64,000 bases of DNA, from contig QHBM01000013.1 in assembly GCA_003244145.1 (NCBI GenBank), positions 1 through 64,000 on the forward strand, in the 5' to 3' direction. Both the position numbers and the translations under genes were made by a program. Positions 20,091 to 36,407 of this stretch are shown here, piece after piece (within the stretch, counting starts at the first letter, position 1; every line of letters begins with the position of its first letter). The notes under the pieces were generated by a model. That model saw only the letters and a program-made list of their open reading frames with translations, had not been told where the DNA came from and did no database searches. Source of the DNA: Chthoniobacterales bacterium. Its GTDB lineage: Bacteria > Verrucomicrobiota > Verrucomicrobiia > Chthoniobacterales > UBA10450.

Positions 20091-23000
20091 TTACTTCAAG
20101 TTATAGATCTCGACCAAGGCGACACCGCTGGCGCCGTTCTTGTCGACCAGGATCGCGGTGAATTGTCCCGGCGGCGCGAGCGCCGTGAAGATGCCCGATT
20201 CTTTCGGATTCGATAGCGCCAAGCCAGCGGCCGTCAGGTTCGCTGCCGCCACCGGATCGTCGGTCCAATTGTCGTTCGAGATCATGATCGTTCCGTTGGC
20301 GTTGTGCAGTTCCAGGGTAGGATCGGGCATGACGTTGTTTATCCCGAATTGAGTTAGCGAAGGTCCGAGGCCGCGCACTGCGATCCGGGTGGGGTTGGGA
20401 TTTCCACCCAGGGTAAAGCCGCCGATCATGACGTTGAGGCCGGTCTGGACAAAGCCGCGGGTGCTGATGTTAGCCAACTGCGAGTCGCTCGCCTGATTGT
20501 TGTCGTAGACTTCCACCAGGCCGATACCGGTGTCCGCGACTCCACCAGTCACTGCGCCGGTCAGGATCGCGGTGTAATTTCCGGGCGAGAGCGTGGCTAG
20601 GATGACTGATTCGCGATTGTCGGTCGGCTGGAAGATGGTGCCTTGGATCTGCGGTGCTTGCGGGCTGTTGATCCAGTCGTCGTTCGAGGTGATCAAAGCG
20701 CCATTAGGCCCGTGCAACTCCAGGAACGGATTGTGGAGGACGGCGGCATCTGGCACCCCGTTGTTGACCAGCGATGGTCCCATCCCGCGCAGGACGACTG
20801 CCTTGGGGCTGTTCCCGGTGATGATGAAGCCGCCGATCATGACTTTCTCCCCGGTATCCACCCGCAGCCGGGTGGAGATGTTCAAGGCCTGGGCCGGAGT
20901 CGGCGTAGGTGTGGCCGTTGGGCTAGGTGTAGGGCTCGGACTTGGGCTAGGTGTCGGCGTAGGCGTGGGAGTAGGTGTCGGCGTAGGTGTCGGGGTAGGG
21001 GTCGGCGTAGGCGCGTTGACTATTTGACCACCCGCGAGTGAGCCACTGCTGCCATTGAAGTTAGTGTCCGCCGTGTAGGTCGCGGTAACGGAGTGCGGAC
21101 TGCCGGCTACCGTAAGGCTAGAAGTGCTGGTCTGGGCCTGGCCGCCACTTAAAGTTACAGGAATCGCGGCCCCGCCATCGATGGCGAAGTTAACGGTGCC
21201 GGTGGGAGTTCCCGCACCCGGCGATACTGCGGCGACCGTGGCCGTGAAGGTCACGTTCTGCCCGCTCGCCGATGGGTTAGCTGATGAGGTGACGCTCGTA
21301 GTGGTATTGGCTTTGTTGACCGTCTGAGAGACGCTCGCATTGCTCGTAGTGTAGTTGCTGTCTCCCGAGTAGGTGGCTTTGATCGTATGCGCTGCGCTGA
21401 CACTTAGCGTTGAAATGCTGAACTGAGCCTGGTTGCTACTCAAGGTAACAGGGCTACCGGCGTTGACGCCGTCCACCTGGAACTGGACCATTCCAGTCCG
21501 CGTCGTCGTAGCGGGTGCATTGGCCGCCACGGTGGCCGTGAAGGTGACGCTCTCGCCAAAGACGGTTGGACTCTTCGACGTGGTGAGAGTCGTGGTCGTG
21601 GTGCCTTGCGCTATTGTGACCGATTCCTGGGCCACGCCGCAGGCGCCGGTTACACTGTTGTTATTGGCATCGCCGCTGTAAGTAGCAATCCAGTTGTAGG
21701 TCCCGGCTGCGGTCGGCGAAAAGCTGCCCGAGCCGTAGTTGTTGGCGTTGCCGTTGACCGGGATGGCCGCCGAGGTAAAGACCGCTGTGCCGGCGCAGGT
21801 GGCGTCGTTCGGTCCATAGAGCTTGAAGGTGATCGAGCCTGTCGGGCTAGCCCCGTTGGCGATGCTCGCCACATCGAAGACAGAGCTTCCAAGAGGTCCG
21901 TTCCCGGAAGCTGCCGTGGCTAGGTTGGGAGTTACCTTGGCTACTATCACCGATTCGTTCGCGTCGTTGCACGCTCCGGCTACGCCGTTGTTGTTCGCGT
22001 CCCCGACGTAGGTGGCAATCCAGTGATAAGTCCCGGCTGCTGCCGGCGTGAAATTGCCCGAACCATAAATGTTCGTGCCCGCCGTGACCGCGAAGGGCCC
22101 TGCCGTAAAGATCGCCGCGTTGCCGCAACTATTATCGTTTGGCCCATAAAGCTTGAACGTAATCGTCCCAGTATGGTTGAACCCGCCGCTCAGGGTCGCG
22201 CTGTCGGAGACCGTGCCGCCCACGGGAACCGTGCCCGAAGCGGTGGTCGCCAGACCCGGTGTAGCTTTACTCACGATGACCGACTCGTTGGGTGCGTTGC
22301 AGGCCGTCGTCACGGAAACATTATTAGCGTCGCCGCTATAGCTCGCTTTCCAGTAATAGGTCCCCGGCGCGGTTGCCTGGTAATTACCGGAAGAATAAGG
22401 CCCGGGTCCATTGACCGCGAAGGGCCCCGCAGTAAAGACCAGGTTGCCAGCGCCGCAGGCATTGTCGTTTTTGTAAAGCGTAAACGTGATCGTCCCCGTC
22501 ACGTTGTATCCGCCAGAGATGGTGGCGCTGTCGGAAACGTTGTTCCCCACGGTCGTGGCCGCGGAAGCCGTGGTGGTAACCGTCGGTGTAGCCTGGCTGA
22601 CTACGGTGTTTTCGTTCGCATCATTACAAACTGTCGCTATCGCCGCGTTATTGGGGTCACCGCTGTAGCTCGCGGTCCAGCGGTAGGTGCCAGGCGCGGT
22701 CGGAGTGAAGTTACCTGAGGTGGCGGTGTTACCGCCCGTGAGCGGAACCGTCGAAGTAAAGATCGCCGCGGCGACGCAGGTGTTATCCGCCGGTGCGTAA
22801 ACATTAAACGTCACAGTGCCGGTGGCATTGACTCCGCCACTAAGCGTCGCGGTATCGGTGACAACTGTTCCCACCGTCGTGGCGGCTGTGGAAACCTGGG
22901 TCACCATCCCGGTCGTCGCCGTATTATTCGTGAGCGTGAAGTCGGCGGAACTGTAGCCGGTCGCGCTGGCAAAGACGTGGTAGGTGCCGGCGGTGTTGTT

Positions 23001-26000
23001 GGCGGTGTTGTTGGCGGTAAAGGCCGGCGCCGTGACAATTCCGGACGCATCGCTTAATTGCGCATTGCTTACATTCGTGCCCGTATCGGCAAAGGTGCCG
23101 CTCGCTCCGCTGGCGGGTGCGGTGAAGGTAACCGAAACGCCGCTGATCACGTTTCCAGACTCCGACACGGTGGCTTTCAGTGCCGTCGTAAAATTGGTGC
23201 CGACCGCCGCGCTCTGCGGCGTCCCAGCGGTAGTGGTAATGATGTAGTTCGCCTCGATCGCGCCGATGTCGACTGTCGTGTTAACCACGCGCGCGAAGCC
23301 GACACCGCGTTGATCGACCGGCAGCGGCTCCGCTACGTCCGCATCGTTATCCAGGTCAAAGGTGTCGGCAGGTAACAGAGCATTGCTGCCGTTGTTAATG
23401 GCCGCGCTGCCAAGGGCAGGAAGGTGCGTTTGCGTAGGTCCGCCGTTGTTACCCAAAGCTCCGAGCTGCGGATTCACGTTCAATTGATTGTTGCCGCCGG
23501 TAACGTTCGCACCGGTGATATCGCCGATCAGGCTGAAGTCGGCGTTGACCGAGCCGGCGATGTCATGCGGCGTGGTGGTCGGGCTCCCACCTTTAAAGTT
23601 ACCAGAGACGATCGTGTTCTTCAGGGTAACCGTTCCGCTAAAGGCTCGGATACCTCCCCCGTCCCCAGTAGCATCGTTGTTATTGTCCGAGCGATTGTCG
23701 GATACGGTCACATTCGTCAGCGTCACTGTCGCGTTCGCAGCGGAAGCACTGTTCGTGTTGTAGAGACCGCCGCCATCCCCATTGCTGGTGTTCCCGCTGA
23801 TCGTGGTATCGACGATGTTCGCCGTCGCGACCCCAGAGTTAGCCGAGCCAACGTTGAGAATCCCGCCACCGGCTCCGGCAGAAATGTTCCCGCTAATGGT
23901 GCTAGTCAGGACGTTCAACGTGGCGGTCCCGTAATCGCCATAGTTGTAAATCCCGCCACCGTTTCCGTTCGCGCGGTTACCGCTGAAGGTGCAGTATTTG
24001 ACCGTCGCCGTCGCCGTGCCGCTCAGGTAGCCGCTGTTGAAGATGCCGCCTCCGCCGTCACCAGCAGCGTTACCGCTGAAGACGCAACTGGTGACGGTCA
24101 AGATGCCATGGTCATTAAAGATGCCGCCACCTTCATTGGCTGGGAACACGCCGCTGGCGCTGCCGTTGGCGATGGTGAGGCCAGAAATGTTTGCCGTCGT
24201 TCCGGGCGTGATCTCAAATACGCGGCTGGCATTGTTGCCACTAACCGTAACGACTGAGCCGCCCGGCCCTGTGATCGTCACGTTCTTGTTAATCAATAGC
24301 TCCGCCGACGTGAGCGTGATCGTACCGGTAAGCCCGGCTTGGAAATTAATCGTACCACCTGCGCAAACATCGAGCAGTGCCTGACGCAACGATCCCGCGT
24401 TCGCGTCATTCAGGTTCGTGACCGTGGCTGGATTGGCACAGAGCAGGGTGATGGTCGGGTCGGCCTTGCCACCCACGTTCGGATCATCGGTAAGAACGTC
24501 GGCGGCGAGATTGGTCCCTTTGACCGTTCCCTGGTTGGAGATCTGGGTTGTGTTTGCCGGCACCAGCGGATTCTCGACCTGGACCGAGAAGGTAACGACA
24601 ACCGTCTTCCCGGGTGGAATGTCGCCGATGTTCACGGCCGAACCTGAGTTGAGGTATTGAATCTTCGGATGATCGCTTGCCATGGCCCCTAAGGCATCGC
24701 CCGCCGCAGGAACGCGACGCTCACCCGTCGTCAGGTATCCATACATGACCTTGTCGCGGTCCTTGGCGTCATAAGCATCAGGCAGACCAAGGGCGTGACC
24801 CATCTCGTGCATGATCGCCGTGAGCAGGTCGACGCGACCGGCCGGCGCGCCGGCTGGATTGGTATAGCTGCGAGTAGCTGAGACAGACTTACCAAATCGC
24901 GAGTTATCGGCAGCGGTAGAACTAATGAACCAGCCATTGCCGCCGGCATTCCGGCTGACGCGAATGTGGTTGCCGGCAGTTTCGCCAAGTTTGAGACTTG
25001 GCAGATCGGCTACTTCAAAGCTTAGCCCGCGCAAGGTGGCGATCTGTGCGTTTGTTAATCCTGTAGCTGACCAACGTTCAACTGCAGCAGCGACCGTTGA
25101 GTCGAGTTGCTGTTGGTCGAGCGCGCTGGTGATACCCGAAAACTGACCAGATACGCCGCCAGGAGCGAGCAGTAGTGGGCAGCCCCCGCTGTTGCTGAAT
25201 GCCGGCGAGGTGTTACCGGCGATGACGAGCTGCTTTGCGGATGCTGCATTCTGAGGGGGTGGACCAACGTGATTTGAAACGCCAGGGTTCTGCCCCCGGA
25301 TGTAGTCGGCAACATTGCCGACGGTGTTGGCCGGTCCGGTGGTACTGTCCACAACGCCTGACGGGTCGTCGGCATAATCCGTTGCCGGAGTGAACCCAAC
25401 TATGGCGAACGAGCCGGAGGCCGTGGTTTGCGAGAACACGCGAATGGAACTTTGATGGCTCGTGCCGAGACTCCATGTTCCGGTGATGGTGTTGCCAGAA
25501 ATTTCCAGGCATGTATCCGTCGAGTCGGCCTGAGTACTAGTTCCTGACTCAATTGCGATAGCCGGATTAGCCGCGCCGGCGTTCTGATCCGGGTTGGTGA
25601 TCGTGTTGCCTTTAACAATCCAGGACACAATACTGCTATCGGGCGCGCCCCCGGAAATGATCACTATGCCCGAACCCTCGGGGTCGTGAATCGTGTTGCC
25701 CTGAATCGTCAGCTTGTGCGTGCCGGCGGAGTTATTGGTGATATCAATGCCGTCGCAGCCGGCGATCTGACAAGTCGAATTCGCATTGCCGGCCGTTCCG
25801 GTCGTGTTGTTTTCAATCAGGCCGGTCCATGTCCCCGAGGCGGTAGACCTGTTAACACCGATCTGGTTCGTGGCGCCGGCGTCCGGGTTTACGCCTACCG
25901 TGATGTTCGTGGTGTTATTGCGGACCTTGTAGGTCATGCCACCGGTGTTCGCCCCGGTGATGGAGATGGCTTGGTTACTGTTGGTGATGGTGTTGCCGTT

Positions 26001-29000
26001 GCCCGCGCCGGTGGCCGGTCCAATGTTGGCGATCATGCTGCTCGAGTTGGCCATATCAAGGCGGATGCCCTGAGCGTAGATCCGGTCGACCGTGCAGTTC
26101 GTGATCGTCGGACTCATCGTGGCGGCGTTGTGCGTCGCCAGGAAGAGACCGGAGTTGGCGGTGGTGTTGGAGGGTGTGCTGGCAGTGACGGGGAAGGTCG
26201 TGTTACTGAACGTCGCCGAGTCAACGTTCACCGTCAAAGCGCCGCTGCCGTTCTGCACCTCGAACTGGTCAGAGGCGTTGTCCTTGTAGAGGCCGCCGGA
26301 CACGGTCAGCGTGCCGGTGAGATTCGCGATCTGGACGCCGTCTTCGCCGACCTCGTTGCCGTTGCCGGTAGCGGTCACGTTCGTGAGCGTCAGGTTCGAG
26401 CCGCCGTTTACATCGATGCCGATCTGTTTGCTCCCCGTGGCGGTAACGTTATTGAGCGTTGCAGTTGTGACGGTCAGAAGGCTGATATTGGAGTTGCAGT
26501 TCGTCGGACCGTTCGTGCCGTTGAGCGCGTCACCGCACGTCGTCGCAGCGCCTAGATTGGCCGTTGCGTTGTTCGTGAAGTTCATGTTCTTGAGCGTAAC
26601 GTTGCTCGCACTACGGAAGTCCGCGCCCTTCGCCGAACAATTTTGAATCGTGCCGCCGCTACCAGCAGTCGTCCCCGTGCCGGTAACGCTGAAGGCACCA
26701 GAACCGGTGACGTTGAGCAACATACCGTTAGTCGTGCCGTTGACGTTGATTTTTTGGAAGGTCACGCCGCTGCCGCCTATTGTGGTGTTATCAATGTTCA
26801 CCGCGGCGGCCGACAAAGCAGTCGTTCCGCCGATGGTGTTACCACTGTTTGTAACGTTGACGGTGCCTCCACCGGTGGCAGTGAAGGCTGTGGTGCCGCC
26901 GGTATTCAGGGTCAAAGCTCCGGTCAAGTTGATCGTGCCGCCGCTGTTAGTGGTAAGTGATATCCCACCGTTAGAATTGGTAACCGATCCGGCATAGGTA
27001 ATTGTCGCCGTTGAGCCGCTCACATTGACGGCTGCCGCTGTCGCCCCCGAGGAAGCTCCCGCATTCATCGCCAGGGAGCCGCTCACGTTAGTAAGGAGAA
27101 TGTTATTGACCCCGCCGGTAGAGGAAACGCTATCGAACACCATCGCGACTGGTTGGCGGTTAGTGGTGTTGTTGAACCCGGTAATCTCCACGGCGCTGGC
27201 GGCAAGGGCACTGATGGTGCCGCTGGTCGACGTAACCGTTCCCGGAACCCCGGCAACAGTATTGGAAATTACAAGGGCTTTTTGCCCGCTGTCGGGCGAG
27301 ATATCGAGGTCGGCGAAGGTCACAGCCCCTGCGTTATTAATCAGAGAGACACCTACCCCGCCACTGCCGGTGACGTTTACATTGGCAAAGCTGATGCCGT
27401 TGCTCGCCGCGGCGACGTTAACGAGGATACCGGTCGAACCGCTGTTGTTAATAGTCGTCTGTCCAGTCACCACGGTCCTGCCGCCGCCCCCGACGCCGCC
27501 ATGGGTTAAGCCCTGGCCCCCGCTCTCGCTGATCGTCAACGTCCCGAAAGTAAAGGTATGCGCGCCAGCTGTAACATTCGCCTCCAGCCGCAGGCCCTCC
27601 TGGCCGCCGCCGCCGCCGCTGTTTGCGACGCCCACAGTTCCGATGGTGGTATTGCCGAAGCTCACGTCCACGTCTGAAGCGGTGACGAAGATGCCTTGGA
27701 TGGCAGAGTTGTTGATCGTGGTGCTGCCAAAGGAAACCGTCCCGTGAATGGTATCCAGCTTGAGGCCATGCTGGCCGGCGGCAGTGCTGGTAGATGCCAC
27801 CGAAACAAAGCCGCTGGCGGCCGCGAAGGTTCCATTCACTAGATCCAGCGCCTTGCCCGAGCCGCTCACCTGCACGTCAGGCGACGTGCTGTCGCCGATT
27901 AGAACCGTGCCGAAGGCGGTTCCAATAATCTTGGCCGCAGTCGTGTTGGCCACGTTAAGTCCGCGGATGGTGTTGCCAGTGCCCAAAGTGATGCCGCCGG
28001 TGACGATCGTTGGCCGTGCGGCGGTGTTCATCGCCGGTGGCGCGCCGCTGTCCGCTGGGAAGGTCAGTCCGGTGATATTCGTTGGATTGCTGTTGGCACT
28101 ATCATTAGCCAATGCGCTGGACGCGCCCTGCCCGATCAGTTTCTCGCTCGTCTTCAAAGTAACCGGGCCGGTGTAGTTGGTGGCGGAGCTGTAGAGGAAA
28201 ATATTGTCGCTCGCCGCATCCACACTGGTGACGGCGGCCAGGGTCTTGAACGGGCTGCCGAATCGCCCGTCGCCATTCGACGCTACGCTTGTATCGATAA
28301 ACCAGATACGGCCGGCGCCGATTGGGATCGTGACTGTGGCTTGCGCCGAGCCGAAGCCATTGCTGACACTGTAAACGATGGTGCCGTTGCTGTTGGCCGC
28401 GGCCGCAGTGGCTGGGTTGAAGGTGAACTTGCCGTTGCTCGAAATGGCGCCGTTCCCATTGGTGGCGCTGACAAATGCCGCCGTAATCTGGTCGCCCGTG
28501 TCATTACTCAACACGCTGAACTGCGAGGAGACTGAGGTATCGATGCCTACGTTGCGAATGAGCGTCGTCGGATAAGTCTCGTTATTCGCCCCTGGACGCA
28601 CACCGACTGCGAGAGAGACTGTCGCGGTGCTGCTGGCAGTCGTATTCGTGATCGTGTATTTAAATGAGTCGAGTCCGGTAAACGTGGCGGACGGCGGCGT
28701 GTAGTTGAAAGAGCCGTTGGCCAATACCTTCACGGTCCCACCGGCTGCGCTCGCTCCGTTAGTGTTACTCGCAACCGTTGTCTCAAGTCCCGTAGAAGGT
28801 CCGAAGCTCGATACCGTCGCAGCCGGTTGACCCGGCGTATCGTTGGCCAGGAGGTTCGGGCTGCTACCGCTTGCAATGGAAGTATTGATGGCGATGTGAT
28901 ACGGAATCGAGCCCGGCGAACTGTTGGATGGGATGCCGCCGGTCGGATCGTTCGCCGCGGTCGGACCTTCGTTGACGGTGAGAGTGAAGGACTGTTGCGC

Positions 29001-29783
29001 ATTCGGCGCGACCCCGTTGCTGGCGGTAAACGTGAGAGGATAGACGCCGCCCTGTCCGACTGCCGGAGTGCCAGAAAGCGTCGCGGTCCCGTCGTTGTTA
29101 TAGACGAAGTTCACGCCGGTAGGCAGGGTTCCCGTCTTGGTAATCGACGTCACGGTCGGGGTGCCGGAGGTGGTGATGTTGAAGGGTGTCGCGAGGACGT
29201 TCGCGGTGAACGTGACGTTGTCCGCGCTCGTGAAGGCCGGCGGCGCCTGCACGTCTAGGGTCACGATCGCGGTGTCGTTAGGCAGTTGGGTGTTGGTTAC
29301 CGTGTAAGTGAACGTGTCCGTGCCGGTAAAGTTGTTGGGCGGATTGTAATCGAAACTGCCGTTTGCGTTCAGCGTGACCGTGCCGCCCTGACTGGTCGCC
29401 CCACCTGCAATCGGAACGGCGGTTGGCGTAGGAACTCCCTTGTCATTAGCCAAAACGCCCGTCGCGCTGATCTGTAGCAAAGTATTCTTGACCGCGTTGT
29501 AGGCGTCGGGAAAGGCGAGAGGCGAGACCTTGTATGACCCCACGTCGGCTGTGTGCGCTGGCGCGGCATCGGTGAGTGAGACGGCCGTGGCGGTCTCCAC
29601 TCCACTGGTGTTCGTGATCGTGACTTTGTAATCGATCTGTCCGCCCGGCTGGGTGGACCCGCCGGGACCGCTCGCCGTCGTCGCTTCCTTCGTCGCCGTG
29701 ACCGTTGGCGCGGCGATCGCGAAAGACGGCATCACCATTACGCCGAGCAACGCAAGGGCGGTCAGTTGAGCTTTGATTTTCAA
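20091..29783 (-). CDS. Giant secreted multidomain protein with embedded metzincin-like motif
   Basis: A 3,230-residue secreted protein. The signal peptide ends near SFAIA. Residues about 27-490 hold Ig- and cadherin-like domains, 490-1430 a long right-handed beta-helix of T/N-rich repeats, then a segment with [11 protein letters not shown] (H1659, E1660, H1663, D1669) and M1680 in VMYG, the zinc site and Met-turn of a metzincin-type peptidase. Residues 1778-2170 are a second beta-helix starting with a [10 protein letters not shown] segment, and 2290-2720 hold four ~105-residue repeats, each ending near ESVTI or ESVIV. Then come two Ig-like domains, a Thr-Pro tract (about 2921-2968) and two copies of a C-terminal domain starting ISTR. 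The start is TTG with no ribosome site. It is probably surface-bound or released, with adhesion, glycan degradation or peptidase roles; which of these is unknown. Confidence 0.88.
20880..21020 (-). repeat. Thr-Pro-coding tandem repeat tract
   Basis: A degenerate 6-bp tandem repeat encoding Thr-Pro and Ser-Pro pairs (residues about 2921-2968 of the giant protein) separates the Ig-like domains from the C-terminal pair. It is a flexible linker, and such tracts can vary in length through slippage. Confidence 0.85.
21620..22906 (-). repeat. Four tandem repeats of about 105 residues within the giant gene
   Basis: Four diverged copies of one domain occupy residues about 2290-2720. Each starts with a Thr/Ala-rich strand (TTVG or a similar form), has a TGT(I/V)TF core, a Cys pair, a GTYxWxAxYxGDxNN segment, and ends with a C(N)xxxES(V) segment. 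The two Cys in each suggest disulfide-stabilised Ig-like modules. Confidence 0.8.
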
Positions 29784-30960: not shown

Positions 30961-31031
30961 CACGGATGAACACGGATGGGAAAACAACGGAACGGATGAC
31001 TGTCATCAGATTCCATCCGTGCAAATCCGTG
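30961..31031. repeat. REP-like inverted repeat
   Basis: Arms at 30961-30982 and 31011-31031 are nearly reverse complements (CACGGATGAACACGGATGG outward), and a perfect inner palindrome GATGAC-T-GTCATC lies between them. The pattern CACGGATnnnCACGGATGG occurs as dispersed repeats in many soil bacteria. It lies upstream of the membrane protein gene at 31110 and would form a hairpin. Confidence 0.75.
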
Positions 31032-31109
31032 TTACCCGCGGTTAAAATTCCTATCCATATCGCAAAATTGGAATTGCCAGAGAACACAAAACGAGCATCC
31101 TCGCGCCTA

Positions 31110-31688
31110 ATGAATTGGGCAGCATTAAAAGCGAAGCTGACGCGAAAACATAATCTTCCGCCGCGCCCTATCCGGCATCTGGCCCGGCTCGCCTTTGTCG
31201 CTTTTCTTCTCACCTTCGTCATCTCGCGCGTCTGCGTGATCCTCATCATGACGCGCCGGATGCCGAACCTTTTCTTCCACGCGGGCGGGACCCACGTGCA
31301 TCATCTCAATTACGGGATCTTTCTCCTTTCGATCACGGGGGCGGTGCTGCTCTTCGCGCCGTTCCCACGTGAGAAACGCGGCTTGTGGGCGCTCCTCTAT
31401 GGACTCGCCATGGGCCTGACCTTCGACGAATTCGGCATGTGGCTGAACCTCGGCGGGAGCTATTGGCAGCGCGCCAGTTTCGACGGTGTGATCGTGGTGC
31501 TGACCGCCTTCGGCCTGATCGCTTTCGCGCCCCGCTGGGAACGCGTCCGCTCGCATCACTTCATCAGCGGCTTGCTGCTGCTAGTTGTGGTCGGGTCGTT
31601 CTACCTGGTGCTCTTCAAATCGCTCCGGCACGCGAATGAGATGCTCATGCCGCGCCTGATCGAGATCGAGGAAGCCGGGCCGCGCTAG
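31110..31688 (+). CDS. Integral membrane protein of unknown function
   Basis: A 192-residue protein with about five hydrophobic helices. The segment THVHHLNYGIFLLSITG near residue 60 and LAMGLTFDEFGMWLNLGG near residue 95 match a family of bacterial integral membrane proteins with a HVHHL signature, whose role is unknown. The start at 31110 avoids the repeat-derived leader of the longer frame. It precedes the GxxExxY element by 12 bp. Confidence 0.7.
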   Translation: MNWAALKAKLTRKHNLPPRPIRHLARLAFVAFLLTFVISRVCVILIMTRRMPNLFFHAGGTHVHHLNYGIFLLSITGAVLLFAPFPREKRGLWALLYGLAMGLTFDEFGMWLNLGGSYWQRASFDGVIVVLTAFGLIAFAPRWERVRSHHFISGLLLLVVVGSFYLVLFKSLRHANEMLMPRLIEIEEAGPR

Positions 31689-31700
31689 CCCGAGAAACTT

Positions 31701-32276
31701 AACCGCGGATTACGCGGATGACTCGGATGGGAAAGGACTGAGGAAGGAATCGACGCTGGGACCGGGCTACTGATAATTTGCCTTGTCAGTGCAATCCGCG
31801 TAATTCGCGGTCAACAATCGCCTCGGATGGGGAACATAATTCACGAGCAACTTAGCAGGGCGATCATCGGGATCGCGATGGAGGTGCTTAATGAGTTGAA
31901 GCCTGGACTTGATAAGGCGCTTTACGAGCGTGCGATGGCGATAGAGTTGCGCCGACAAGGTCATGTCGTGGCCGTGCAGCAATCCTTTCCGGTGTTTTAT
32001 CGCGCCGAGTTGATCGGAAGTCTCGTTCCTGATTTGATCGTCGATATCTCTATCATCGTGGATACGAAAGTTGTCTCTGCGTTTTCCGACACGCACATCG
32101 CCCAAATGATTGGCTACTTGAACATCACCGGGTTGGAACTTGCGCTGCTTCTAAACTTCAAAAACGCCCGGCTCGATTGGAAACGAGTGGTGCGCCAACA
32201 GAAGATCAGCGACGCGCATCCCCCCGATCTTAAATCCTTATTCTCCCTATCCGTGCCATCCGCATAATCCGCGGTT
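31701..32276. mobile_element. Inverted-repeat element carrying a GxxExxY gene
   Basis: Near-inverted repeats of about 31-36 bp, starting AACCGCGGATTA, lie at 31701-31735 and 32241-32276 (27 of the first 31 positions match by eye). A third inverted copy sits at 31793-31812 and can pair with the left arm. The right repeat covers the last codons of the GxxExxY gene. Related motifs (CGGATG) occur in the REP-like repeat at 30961. The layout resembles a small non-autonomous repeat unit with a passenger gene. No transposase is present. Confidence 0.6.
31827..32267 (+). CDS. GxxExxY-family protein (PD-(D/E)XK-like nuclease fold)
   Basis: A 146-residue protein of the GxxExxY group, which has a PD-(D/E)XK nuclease-like core. 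The expected GxxExxY motif reads GLDKALY, with Lys replacing Glu; the catalytic-like segment is VPDLIVDISIIVDTK (Asp where E is typical), followed by HIAQMIGYLNITGLELALLLNF. Such genes are widespread and sit inside repeats. Whether it cleaves DNA is unknown, and the altered residues argue for lost or changed activity. Its C-terminus is encoded by the right inverted repeat. Confidence 0.85.
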   Translation: MGNIIHEQLSRAIIGIAMEVLNELKPGLDKALYERAMAIELRRQGHVVAVQQSFPVFYRAELIGSLVPDLIVDISIIVDTKVVSAFSDTHIAQMIGYLNITGLELALLLNFKNARLDWKRVVRQQKISDAHPPDLKSLFSLSVPSA

Positions 32277-32282
32277 GCTCCC

Positions 32283-32798
32283 CTACTTGATCACCTTAAT
32301 GGAATCGACGATGGCGCCGATATCATCGCCATGCTTTTGCATGGCGACGGCGAGCCCGCTGAACATCAGGAAATAGGCGTCGCCTCCCTCTTTCGGTTCG
32401 ATCGCGAGCAACTCCGCCGTGATCCCCTGACCCGACGACTTCCCTTTCACGACATAAATCGTCCCCTTCACGCCGTTCTTGTTCGTGTCGTCACCCAGGT
32501 CCTTGGATTCGACCTCCTTCATGCTGGCCGCTTTCGTGAAAGTCTTTGCCAGGTCGGGCAACTGTTCTTTCACCTGGGGAAAGGTCTGGCCCATTTTGTT
32601 CACGTTGAGCGTGAGCCCTTGCGCATCGCCCGACTTGCAGACCAGATCGCCGTCCTTGTCCGCCTCCACGGTCCAGCCTTCGGGCAACTTGAAACTAAAG
32701 TCCGGATCCTTTTCCGGGAACTTGATGCTCTTGGCCTGGAGCGCGGTTACGGCGGAAAGAAAGAGGCAGGCAGCGATCGTGGTGTAGTTGATTTTCAT
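32283..32798 (-). CDS. Secreted protein, PsbP/DUF1795-like, paralogue of the next gene
   Basis: A 171-residue precursor with a signal peptide (cleavage near LQAKS). The mature domain begins with a F-x-LPEGWTVEADKDGDL segment and has a DSIKVIK end, resembling PsbP-like or DUF1795 domains that occur in the periplasm. It is a paralogue of the upstream gene at 32825, 26 bp away, sharing the WTVE-x-DG pattern. Function unknown. Confidence 0.75.
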   Translation of the reverse strand: MKINYTTIAACLFLSAVTALQAKSIKFPEKDPDFSFKLPEGWTVEADKDGDLVCKSGDAQGLTLNVNKMGQTFPQVKEQLPDLAKTFTKAASMKEVESKDLGDDTNKNGVKGTIYVVKGKSSGQGITAELLAIEPKEGGDAYFLMFSGLAVAMQKHGDDIGAIVDSIKVIK

Positions 32799-33375: not shown

Positions 33376-33410
33376 CATCCTCCATCCTCTATCCTCTATC
33401 CTCCATCCTC
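33376..33410. repeat. Five tandem 7-bp units (YATCCTC)
   Basis: Five back-to-back heptamers: CATCCTC, CATCCTC, TATCCTC, TATCCTC, CATCCTC. On the minus strand these read GAGGATR. The array covers the 3' end of the yidD-like gene, whose TAG stop lies inside it, so the last few residues of that protein come from repeat sequence. Heptamer arrays are known in several phyla as slippage-prone repeats. Confidence 0.85.
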
Positions 33411-36290: not shown

Positions 36291-36365
36291 AGGACTGGTG
36301 TCTATTTCAGATCGCGTTGAGTCATTAGGCTCCGGTTTGACCACGCGCGACGGTTGCACTCGGAC

Positions 36366-36400
36366 GTCCAACGTCCAACGTTCAACATCCAACGTTCAAC
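36366..36400. repeat. Five tandem 7-bp units (RTYCAAC)
   Basis: GTCCAAC, GTCCAAC, GTTCAAC, ATCCAAC, GTTCAAC run end to end and stop 7 bp before the ATG of the SIS gene, so they cover its ribosome-binding region; no Shine-Dalgarno sequence is seen there. A slippage change could move any upstream signals. A second heptamer array of the same copy number lies at 33376. Confidence 0.85.
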
Positions 36401-36407
36401 GCTTCTG

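Follow-up and report, generated by a model that had tools for sequence, protein, structure and literature searches.

Anatomy of the unit

The window analysed here, a stretch of 64,000 nucleotides from a Chthoniobacterales bacterium, carries a short unit at positions 31701-32276 that lies between two protein-coding ORFs and outside rRNA (Table 1). Its outer arms are 31 nt each, are 87% complementary and leave 514 nt between them. The preliminary description had recognised near-identical inverted repeats around a gene with a nuclease fold, a third copy of the repeat inside, and a right repeat that encodes the end of the protein. Each of these features was recovered: the enclosed protein matches the family profiles TIGR04256 and PF13366, the inner copy is inverted and 90% complementary to the left arm, and the right arm covers the last residues of the protein.

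Table 1. Features of the unit and its neighbours, in window positions.
Feature	Position	Strand	Remarks
Upstream neighbour, putative membrane protein ORF	30966-31688	+	Kept at the orthologous site in G020 and G026
Left arm	31701-31731	+	Three ~9-bp iterons: AACCGCGGAT TACGCGGAT GACTCGGATGG
Inner inverted arm	31794-31814	-	With 31701-31731, closes a ~112-bp palindrome of the gene-less type ahead of the gene
Gene-proximal iteron CTCGGATGG	31822-31830	+	Contains the start codon ATG at 31827
GxxExxY gene (146 aa), PD-(D/E)XK nuclease superfamily	31827-32267	+	
K30 codon	31914-31916	+	In place of the GxxE glutamate (GLDK; congeners GLDE)
Right arm	32246-32276	-	Inverted iterons as in the left arm; codes for the C-terminus and stop
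Downstream neighbour, putative secreted protein ORF	32283-32798	-	Convergent; its 74% identical G026 orthologue marks the empty site

Rather than plain terminal repeats, the arms consist of a ~9-bp word (CGCGGATTA) repeated in a short array, and in congeners the left arm continues directly into the start-codon iteron, the counterpart of CTCGGATGG in the window. A degenerate fourth copy of the repeat lies at 31025-31042. The 22-nt core of the arms has two matches in the window, against 0.00 expected from 100 shuffles. Chance repeats were ruled out, since the shuffles lack the core and a reversed-pattern control lacks matches in the genome.

Protein family and fold

The window protein scored 113.6 bits against TIGR04256 (cut-off 35) and 107.6 bits against PF13366 (cut-off 22). 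The GxxExxY motif itself is absent: the protein reads GLDKALY where congeners have GLDE..Y. Its membership of the family is based on the whole profile, and the loss of the motif is specific to the window copy. Across the family, the D, E and K of the nuclease site are invariant or near-invariant. The window copy, which has lysine for the motif glutamate, may be inactive or altered. It keeps an unbroken reading frame, and comparison with the G026 copy gives a dN/dS of 0.06 at a dS near saturation.

An AlphaFold model of the protein is confident (pLDDT 88). The best structure matches were weak and were led by PD-(D/E)XK exonucleases (LHK-Exo) and SSO0001; lower ranks included tRNA splicing endonucleases and a Holliday resolvase. 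An assignment finer than PD-(D/E)XK was dropped because the matches were too weak. The Cas4 profile gave weak, marginal matches for one typical GxxExxY relative and no match for the window protein, and none of the GxxExxY loci that were read has a cas neighbourhood. We also dropped an anti-phage annotation, because the marginal Cas4 matches came from a relative alone and phage families were unmatched. The weak fold matches to LHK-Exo and SSO0001 and the weak Cas4 matches of the relative are shared ground with the Cas4/RecB/lambda-exonuclease-type PD-(D/E)XK nucleases, and so is the arrangement of D, ExK and a QxxxY-like element in GxxExxY proteins, which we take to resemble the motifs of these nucleases. 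In contrast to them, the GxxExxY protein consists of a core of ~115 aa alone, and the similarity lies at the margin of significance.

Four genes, four words and dispersed palindromes

The source assembly (3.6 Mb, 88% complete, 173 contigs) contains four GxxExxY genes. Inverted iterons bracket each of them, and the word differs from gene to gene: CGCGGATTA at the window locus, CAGGATTTA between gyrB and gyrA, CACGGATGA between helicase-like and malQ-like genes, and CAGGAAAG between nuoF- and nuoG-like genes. These flanking genes were named by eye from the translated sequence, not from profiles.

The preliminary description had proposed a search of the genome for the repeat with and without the gene. 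The window word was found at ~30 sites, compared with 0 for the reversed-pattern control, many of them in palindromes without a gene. Sites that were read out are gene-less palindromes, mostly of 69-166 bp and with mostly unrelated loops. Palindromes of other subtypes are built from other words, among them CAGGATTTA and CGCAGATTT. The window-type repeat is present in 65 of the 83 genomes of the window's family, and genome G022 has 27 window-type sites although it lacks a GxxExxY gene. Hence, the expectation that repeat number follows gene presence was not borne out.

Bracketing across the family and beyond

A locus was called bracketed at a flanking inverted match score of at least 27, with outer windows of the same loci as controls. 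In the window's own phylum, 114 of 123 GxxExxY loci, mostly from the window's family, were bracketed by inverted iteron arrays, compared with 6 of 224 controls. In a second set, drawn with a single protein as query and mostly from other phyla (record titles point to Bacteroidetes, Proteobacteria, Deltaproteobacteria, Chloroflexi and further groups), 64 of 80 named GxxExxY loci were bracketed, compared with 3 of 142 controls. The sampled loci were the top-scoring matches to the family, and the bracketing rates therefore apply to typical family members.

GxxExxY genes were present in 74 of the 83 genomes of the window's family and in 164 of the 289 sampled genomes of its phylum. The GxxExxY protein of one genome of this phylum is identical to a protein from a Lentisphaera MAG. 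The iterons have a period of 8-10 bp in 98 of 101 arms and of 7 bp in none of the 101. In the set drawn mostly from other phyla, the GxxExxY gene was oriented with its neighbours at 29 loci (++) and against them at one (--), loci of unclear strand not being counted. The window locus, with its convergent downstream neighbour, is atypical and unlike the co-directional majority.

Arms and protein change together

Arm 5-mer similarity tracks protein identity. At 87 loci compared between genera of the window's family, the Mantel correlation was 0.80, with a largest value of 0.07 among 999 permutations. Over all 162 loci r was 0.58. After removal of pairs with homologous flanks, the correlation between genera was still 0.55, with permutation maxima <0.08. 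GxxExxY copies inside one genome, by comparison, have different iterons and a mean arm similarity of 0.09. Most close pairs of loci are at orthologous loci, and shared inheritance of these loci contributes in part to the covariation. Shared inheritance as the sole cause was rejected, given the correlation that persists without homologous flanks and arms that outlast fourfold-degenerate sites. Across 274 cross-genus orthologous pairs the arms were 0.77-0.78 identical, compared with 0.33 for fourfold-degenerate sites; applied to random 30-mers, the arm measure gives 0.48. Purifying selection acts on the gene, with dN/dS of 0.02-0.11 among pairs with an estimable dS, several of them near saturation.

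Left and right arms were compared in seven orthologous groups, with arms that were not picked by their mutual match, which avoids inflating identity within a locus. In four of the seven, the arms within a locus were closer to each other than to the opposite arms of orthologues, and this likeness points to concerted change. Sense-strand mismatches compatible with G-U pairing were not in excess (86 vs 118, 81 vs 94, 48 vs 45). Pairing as RNA would predict such an excess, so that recognition of the iterons as DNA is favoured.

A second family with iteron brackets, and an RNA-level reading

Proteins of the S23/IVP family are known from intervening sequences of 23S rRNA with complementary ends, and the family is said to have no known function (PMC4990558). 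The source genome has 11 matches to these four-helix-bundle genes (PF05635). S23/IVP loci were bracketed in 33 of 39 cases, compared with 0 of 68 controls. Their iterons have a period of 7 bp in 57 of 60 arms, and arm similarity follows protein similarity here too (r 0.76, 33 loci). The loci read out in the source genome and its family (L066-L076, L321-L350) carry inverted 7-bp iterons and lie outside rRNA.

S23/IVP elements, including the 23S rRNA intervening sequences, resemble the GxxExxY unit in that inverted ends enclose one small gene, which runs in the direction of its surroundings; in the window's family, their brackets are likewise iterons that vary with the protein. They differ in an unrelated protein without a nuclease site and in a period of 7 bp rather than 8-10 bp, and the GxxExxY unit is intergenic instead of lying in rRNA.

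The resemblance raises the alternative that the GxxExxY unit acts at the RNA level, as 23S rRNA intervening sequences do: the two arms would form a stem in the operon mRNA around a loop that contains the ORF, the hairpin would be processed in an RNase III-like manner or would insulate translation, and the gene would be carried along. The bracketed layout found here for S23/IVP genes, whose proteins are known from rRNA intervening sequences (PMC4990558), is in line with this alternative, as are the joint change of left and right arms and the orientation bias in the set drawn mostly from other phyla; yet the same bias is expected if the gene relies on read-through transcription. Moreover, a stem needs neither short regular iterons nor subtype-specific words, and the G-U-compatible mismatches show no excess. 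We consider an RNA-level element rather unlikely.

Locus stability, empty and decayed sites

Most GxxExxY copies sit, co-directionally, at a locus common to several genera. Subtypes occupy mostly one or two loci each, and a few hold more than one; the CAGGAAAG type keeps a single locus across nine genera.

The spacer that holds the unit in the window carries the gene in G020, whereas in G026 it contains no more than a palindrome of this repeat family, 110 bp long, i.e. an empty site of the kind that the preliminary description had asked for in relatives. With ~30 genomic sites of the repeat and this empty site in a relative, the refuting condition named in the preliminary description, unique repeats and no empty site, does not apply. 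The window-type gene of G026 lies instead between two pilT-like genes. The G023 copy at the same pilT-like place lacks its middle part and largely retains its arms; at its malQ-like locus, G023 has a decayed copy of which the arms have decayed too. Window-type genes thus occupy two different loci within the genus, and which congener has the nearest window-type protein differs with the measure used. The pattern across G020, G026 and G023 fits relocation or differential loss.

Between gyrB and gyrA, the genes of G026 overlap without an insert, G000 and G025 carry the GxxExxY gene, and other congeners have different elements. No clean junction for a target-site duplication was found at gyrB-gyrA, where the overlapping genes constrain junctions. 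As a side observation, the contents of this spacer differ among the eight congeners (L010, L098-L104) and comprise overlapping genes, a short spacer, palindromes with 7-bp iterons, a GTCATCCCGAGC repeat, a toxin-antitoxin-like pair of small genes, and GxxExxY. At locus L320 of G020, two palindromes that flank the gene share an insert of ~36 bp (CTCGCCACGGCGGAGCCCGTCCTTGGGCGGAGGCGGG) at the same point of the iteron arm; upstream of the gene, a pair of palindromes has loop sequence in common. The shared insert and loops suggest local copying.

These data bear on the proposal in the preliminary description of a small, non-autonomous mobile unit with a passenger gene. The unit is real and its repeat is dispersed, but frequent mobility does not agree with copies that mostly share a locus across genera. 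The terms 'non-autonomous' and 'passenger' are not supported: arms and protein covary, arm conservation exceeds that of synonymous sites and purifying selection acts on the gene, so that it is no arbitrary cargo. We regard it as unlikely that the unit is MITE-like and moved by a transposase encoded elsewhere, with the gene as cargo and the gene-less palindromes as its deletion derivatives. Such an origin would account for the dispersed gene-less palindromes, the empty site, the middle-deleted copy in G023 and the two loci of window-type genes within the genus. However, the arms are specific to the protein subtype and differ within one genome, no target duplication was seen, and locus stability across genera, arm conservation and purifying selection misfit neutral cargo. 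Classical bacterial MITEs are likewise short, dispersed units with inverted ends and mostly without a gene; GxxExxY units differ from them in their stable loci and in arms that track the enclosed protein.

A proposed nuclease element with cognate palindromes

A host regulatory unit, in which the protein binds its own arms and controls its own or operon expression without mobility, is very unlikely, for although sites in core operons under strong selection (gyrB-gyrA, nuoF-nuoG-like), a start codon within an iteron and an iteron spacing of 8-10 bp, about one helical turn, would suit it, by itself it leaves unexplained both the gene-less palindromes in many unrelated spacers and the invariant or near-invariant D, E and K of the nuclease site.

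Our preferred reading, to which we assign a probability of about 0.55, is that the unit is a vertically inherited single-gene nuclease element with cognate dispersed palindromes, similar to REPIN/RAYT but non-homologous to it, rather than a plain MITE that carries a passenger. The iteron arrays, with about three words of 8-10 bp per arm, would most likely serve as the DNA sites that the protein itself recognises, with a separate word for each protein subtype. A subtype would typically have one gene copy, kept vertically at a preferred and usually co-directional intergenic locus, with gene-less palindromes of the same arms scattered through the genome. The nuclease would recognise and process these palindromes, probably when they form cruciforms or single-stranded hairpins. 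Processing may copy or homogenise the arms, and repair may occasionally move a palindrome or the gene, much as RAYT serves its REPINs. What is observed comprises the bracketing, the covariation of arms with protein subtype, the conserved arms, purifying selection on the gene, the palindromes without a gene, the empty site, the decayed copies and the orientation bias; binding, cleavage and mobilisation by the GxxExxY protein are what we infer. Points against this reading are the part of inheritance in the covariation, repeat numbers that do not follow gene presence, an orientation bias that would also suit a role as RNA, and the missing motif glutamate of the window copy.

In REPIN/RAYT systems, the transposase gene exists as a single, vertically inherited copy that goes with repeats of its own (PMC3116915, PMC8049555). 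The GxxExxY units share with them the dispersed intergenic inverted doublets, the different repeat types in one genome, and, for each repeat type, one distinctive gene that is inherited vertically and flanked by its own repeat. In contrast, RAYT is a Y1 HUH transposase, while only PD-(D/E)XK profiles match the window protein; a REP is one imperfect palindrome, while GxxExxY arms are arrays of 8-10-bp iterons; and the GxxExxY gene is enclosed by a doublet, with one arm on either side. Hence, the unit is outside REPIN/RAYT by its protein and closely similar by its anatomy.

The GxxExxY family is almost absent from the open-licence papers searched, and a paper that names it does so only beside a cas4 question. 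We found no earlier description of the pairing between GxxExxY proteins and iterons in the titles and abstracts of these papers, and it may have been described elsewhere. Tentatively, and with less confidence than for the unit itself, we suggest a class of repeat systems that is absent from the literature searched and extends over many phyla, in which the GxxExxY nuclease and, separately, the S23/IVP protein each co-evolve with their own iteron palindromes (8-10 bp and 7 bp, respectively) and process and disperse them. Such a class would be a non-homologous counterpart of REPIN/RAYT, and it might also explain the origin of ORF-bearing rRNA intervening sequences. From the pairing of subtype and iteron, a substrate can be predicted for each orphan nuclease, and some of the dispersed intergenic palindromes can be predicted to be linked to it. 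For S23/IVP, the rule of 7-bp words provides a lead on a family with no known function (PMC4990558).

Other repeats in the window

A second gene-less palindrome, with CACGGATGA and CGCGG iterons, spans 30961-31050 across the start of the ORF upstream of the unit. The first codons of this ORF look repeat-derived, so that its true start may be further in; homology with G026 starts at residue 38. Short tandem arrays of 7 bp, of the type that brackets S23/IVP genes, lie at 33376-33410 (CATCCTC) and 36364-36401 (ACGTCCA), with no S23/IVP gene noted there. Finally, a 12/24-bp tandem repeat (TAGGTGTCGGCG) at 20948-21013 lies within a 3230-aa ORF (20091-29783), where it codes for a Pro-Thr-rich linker.
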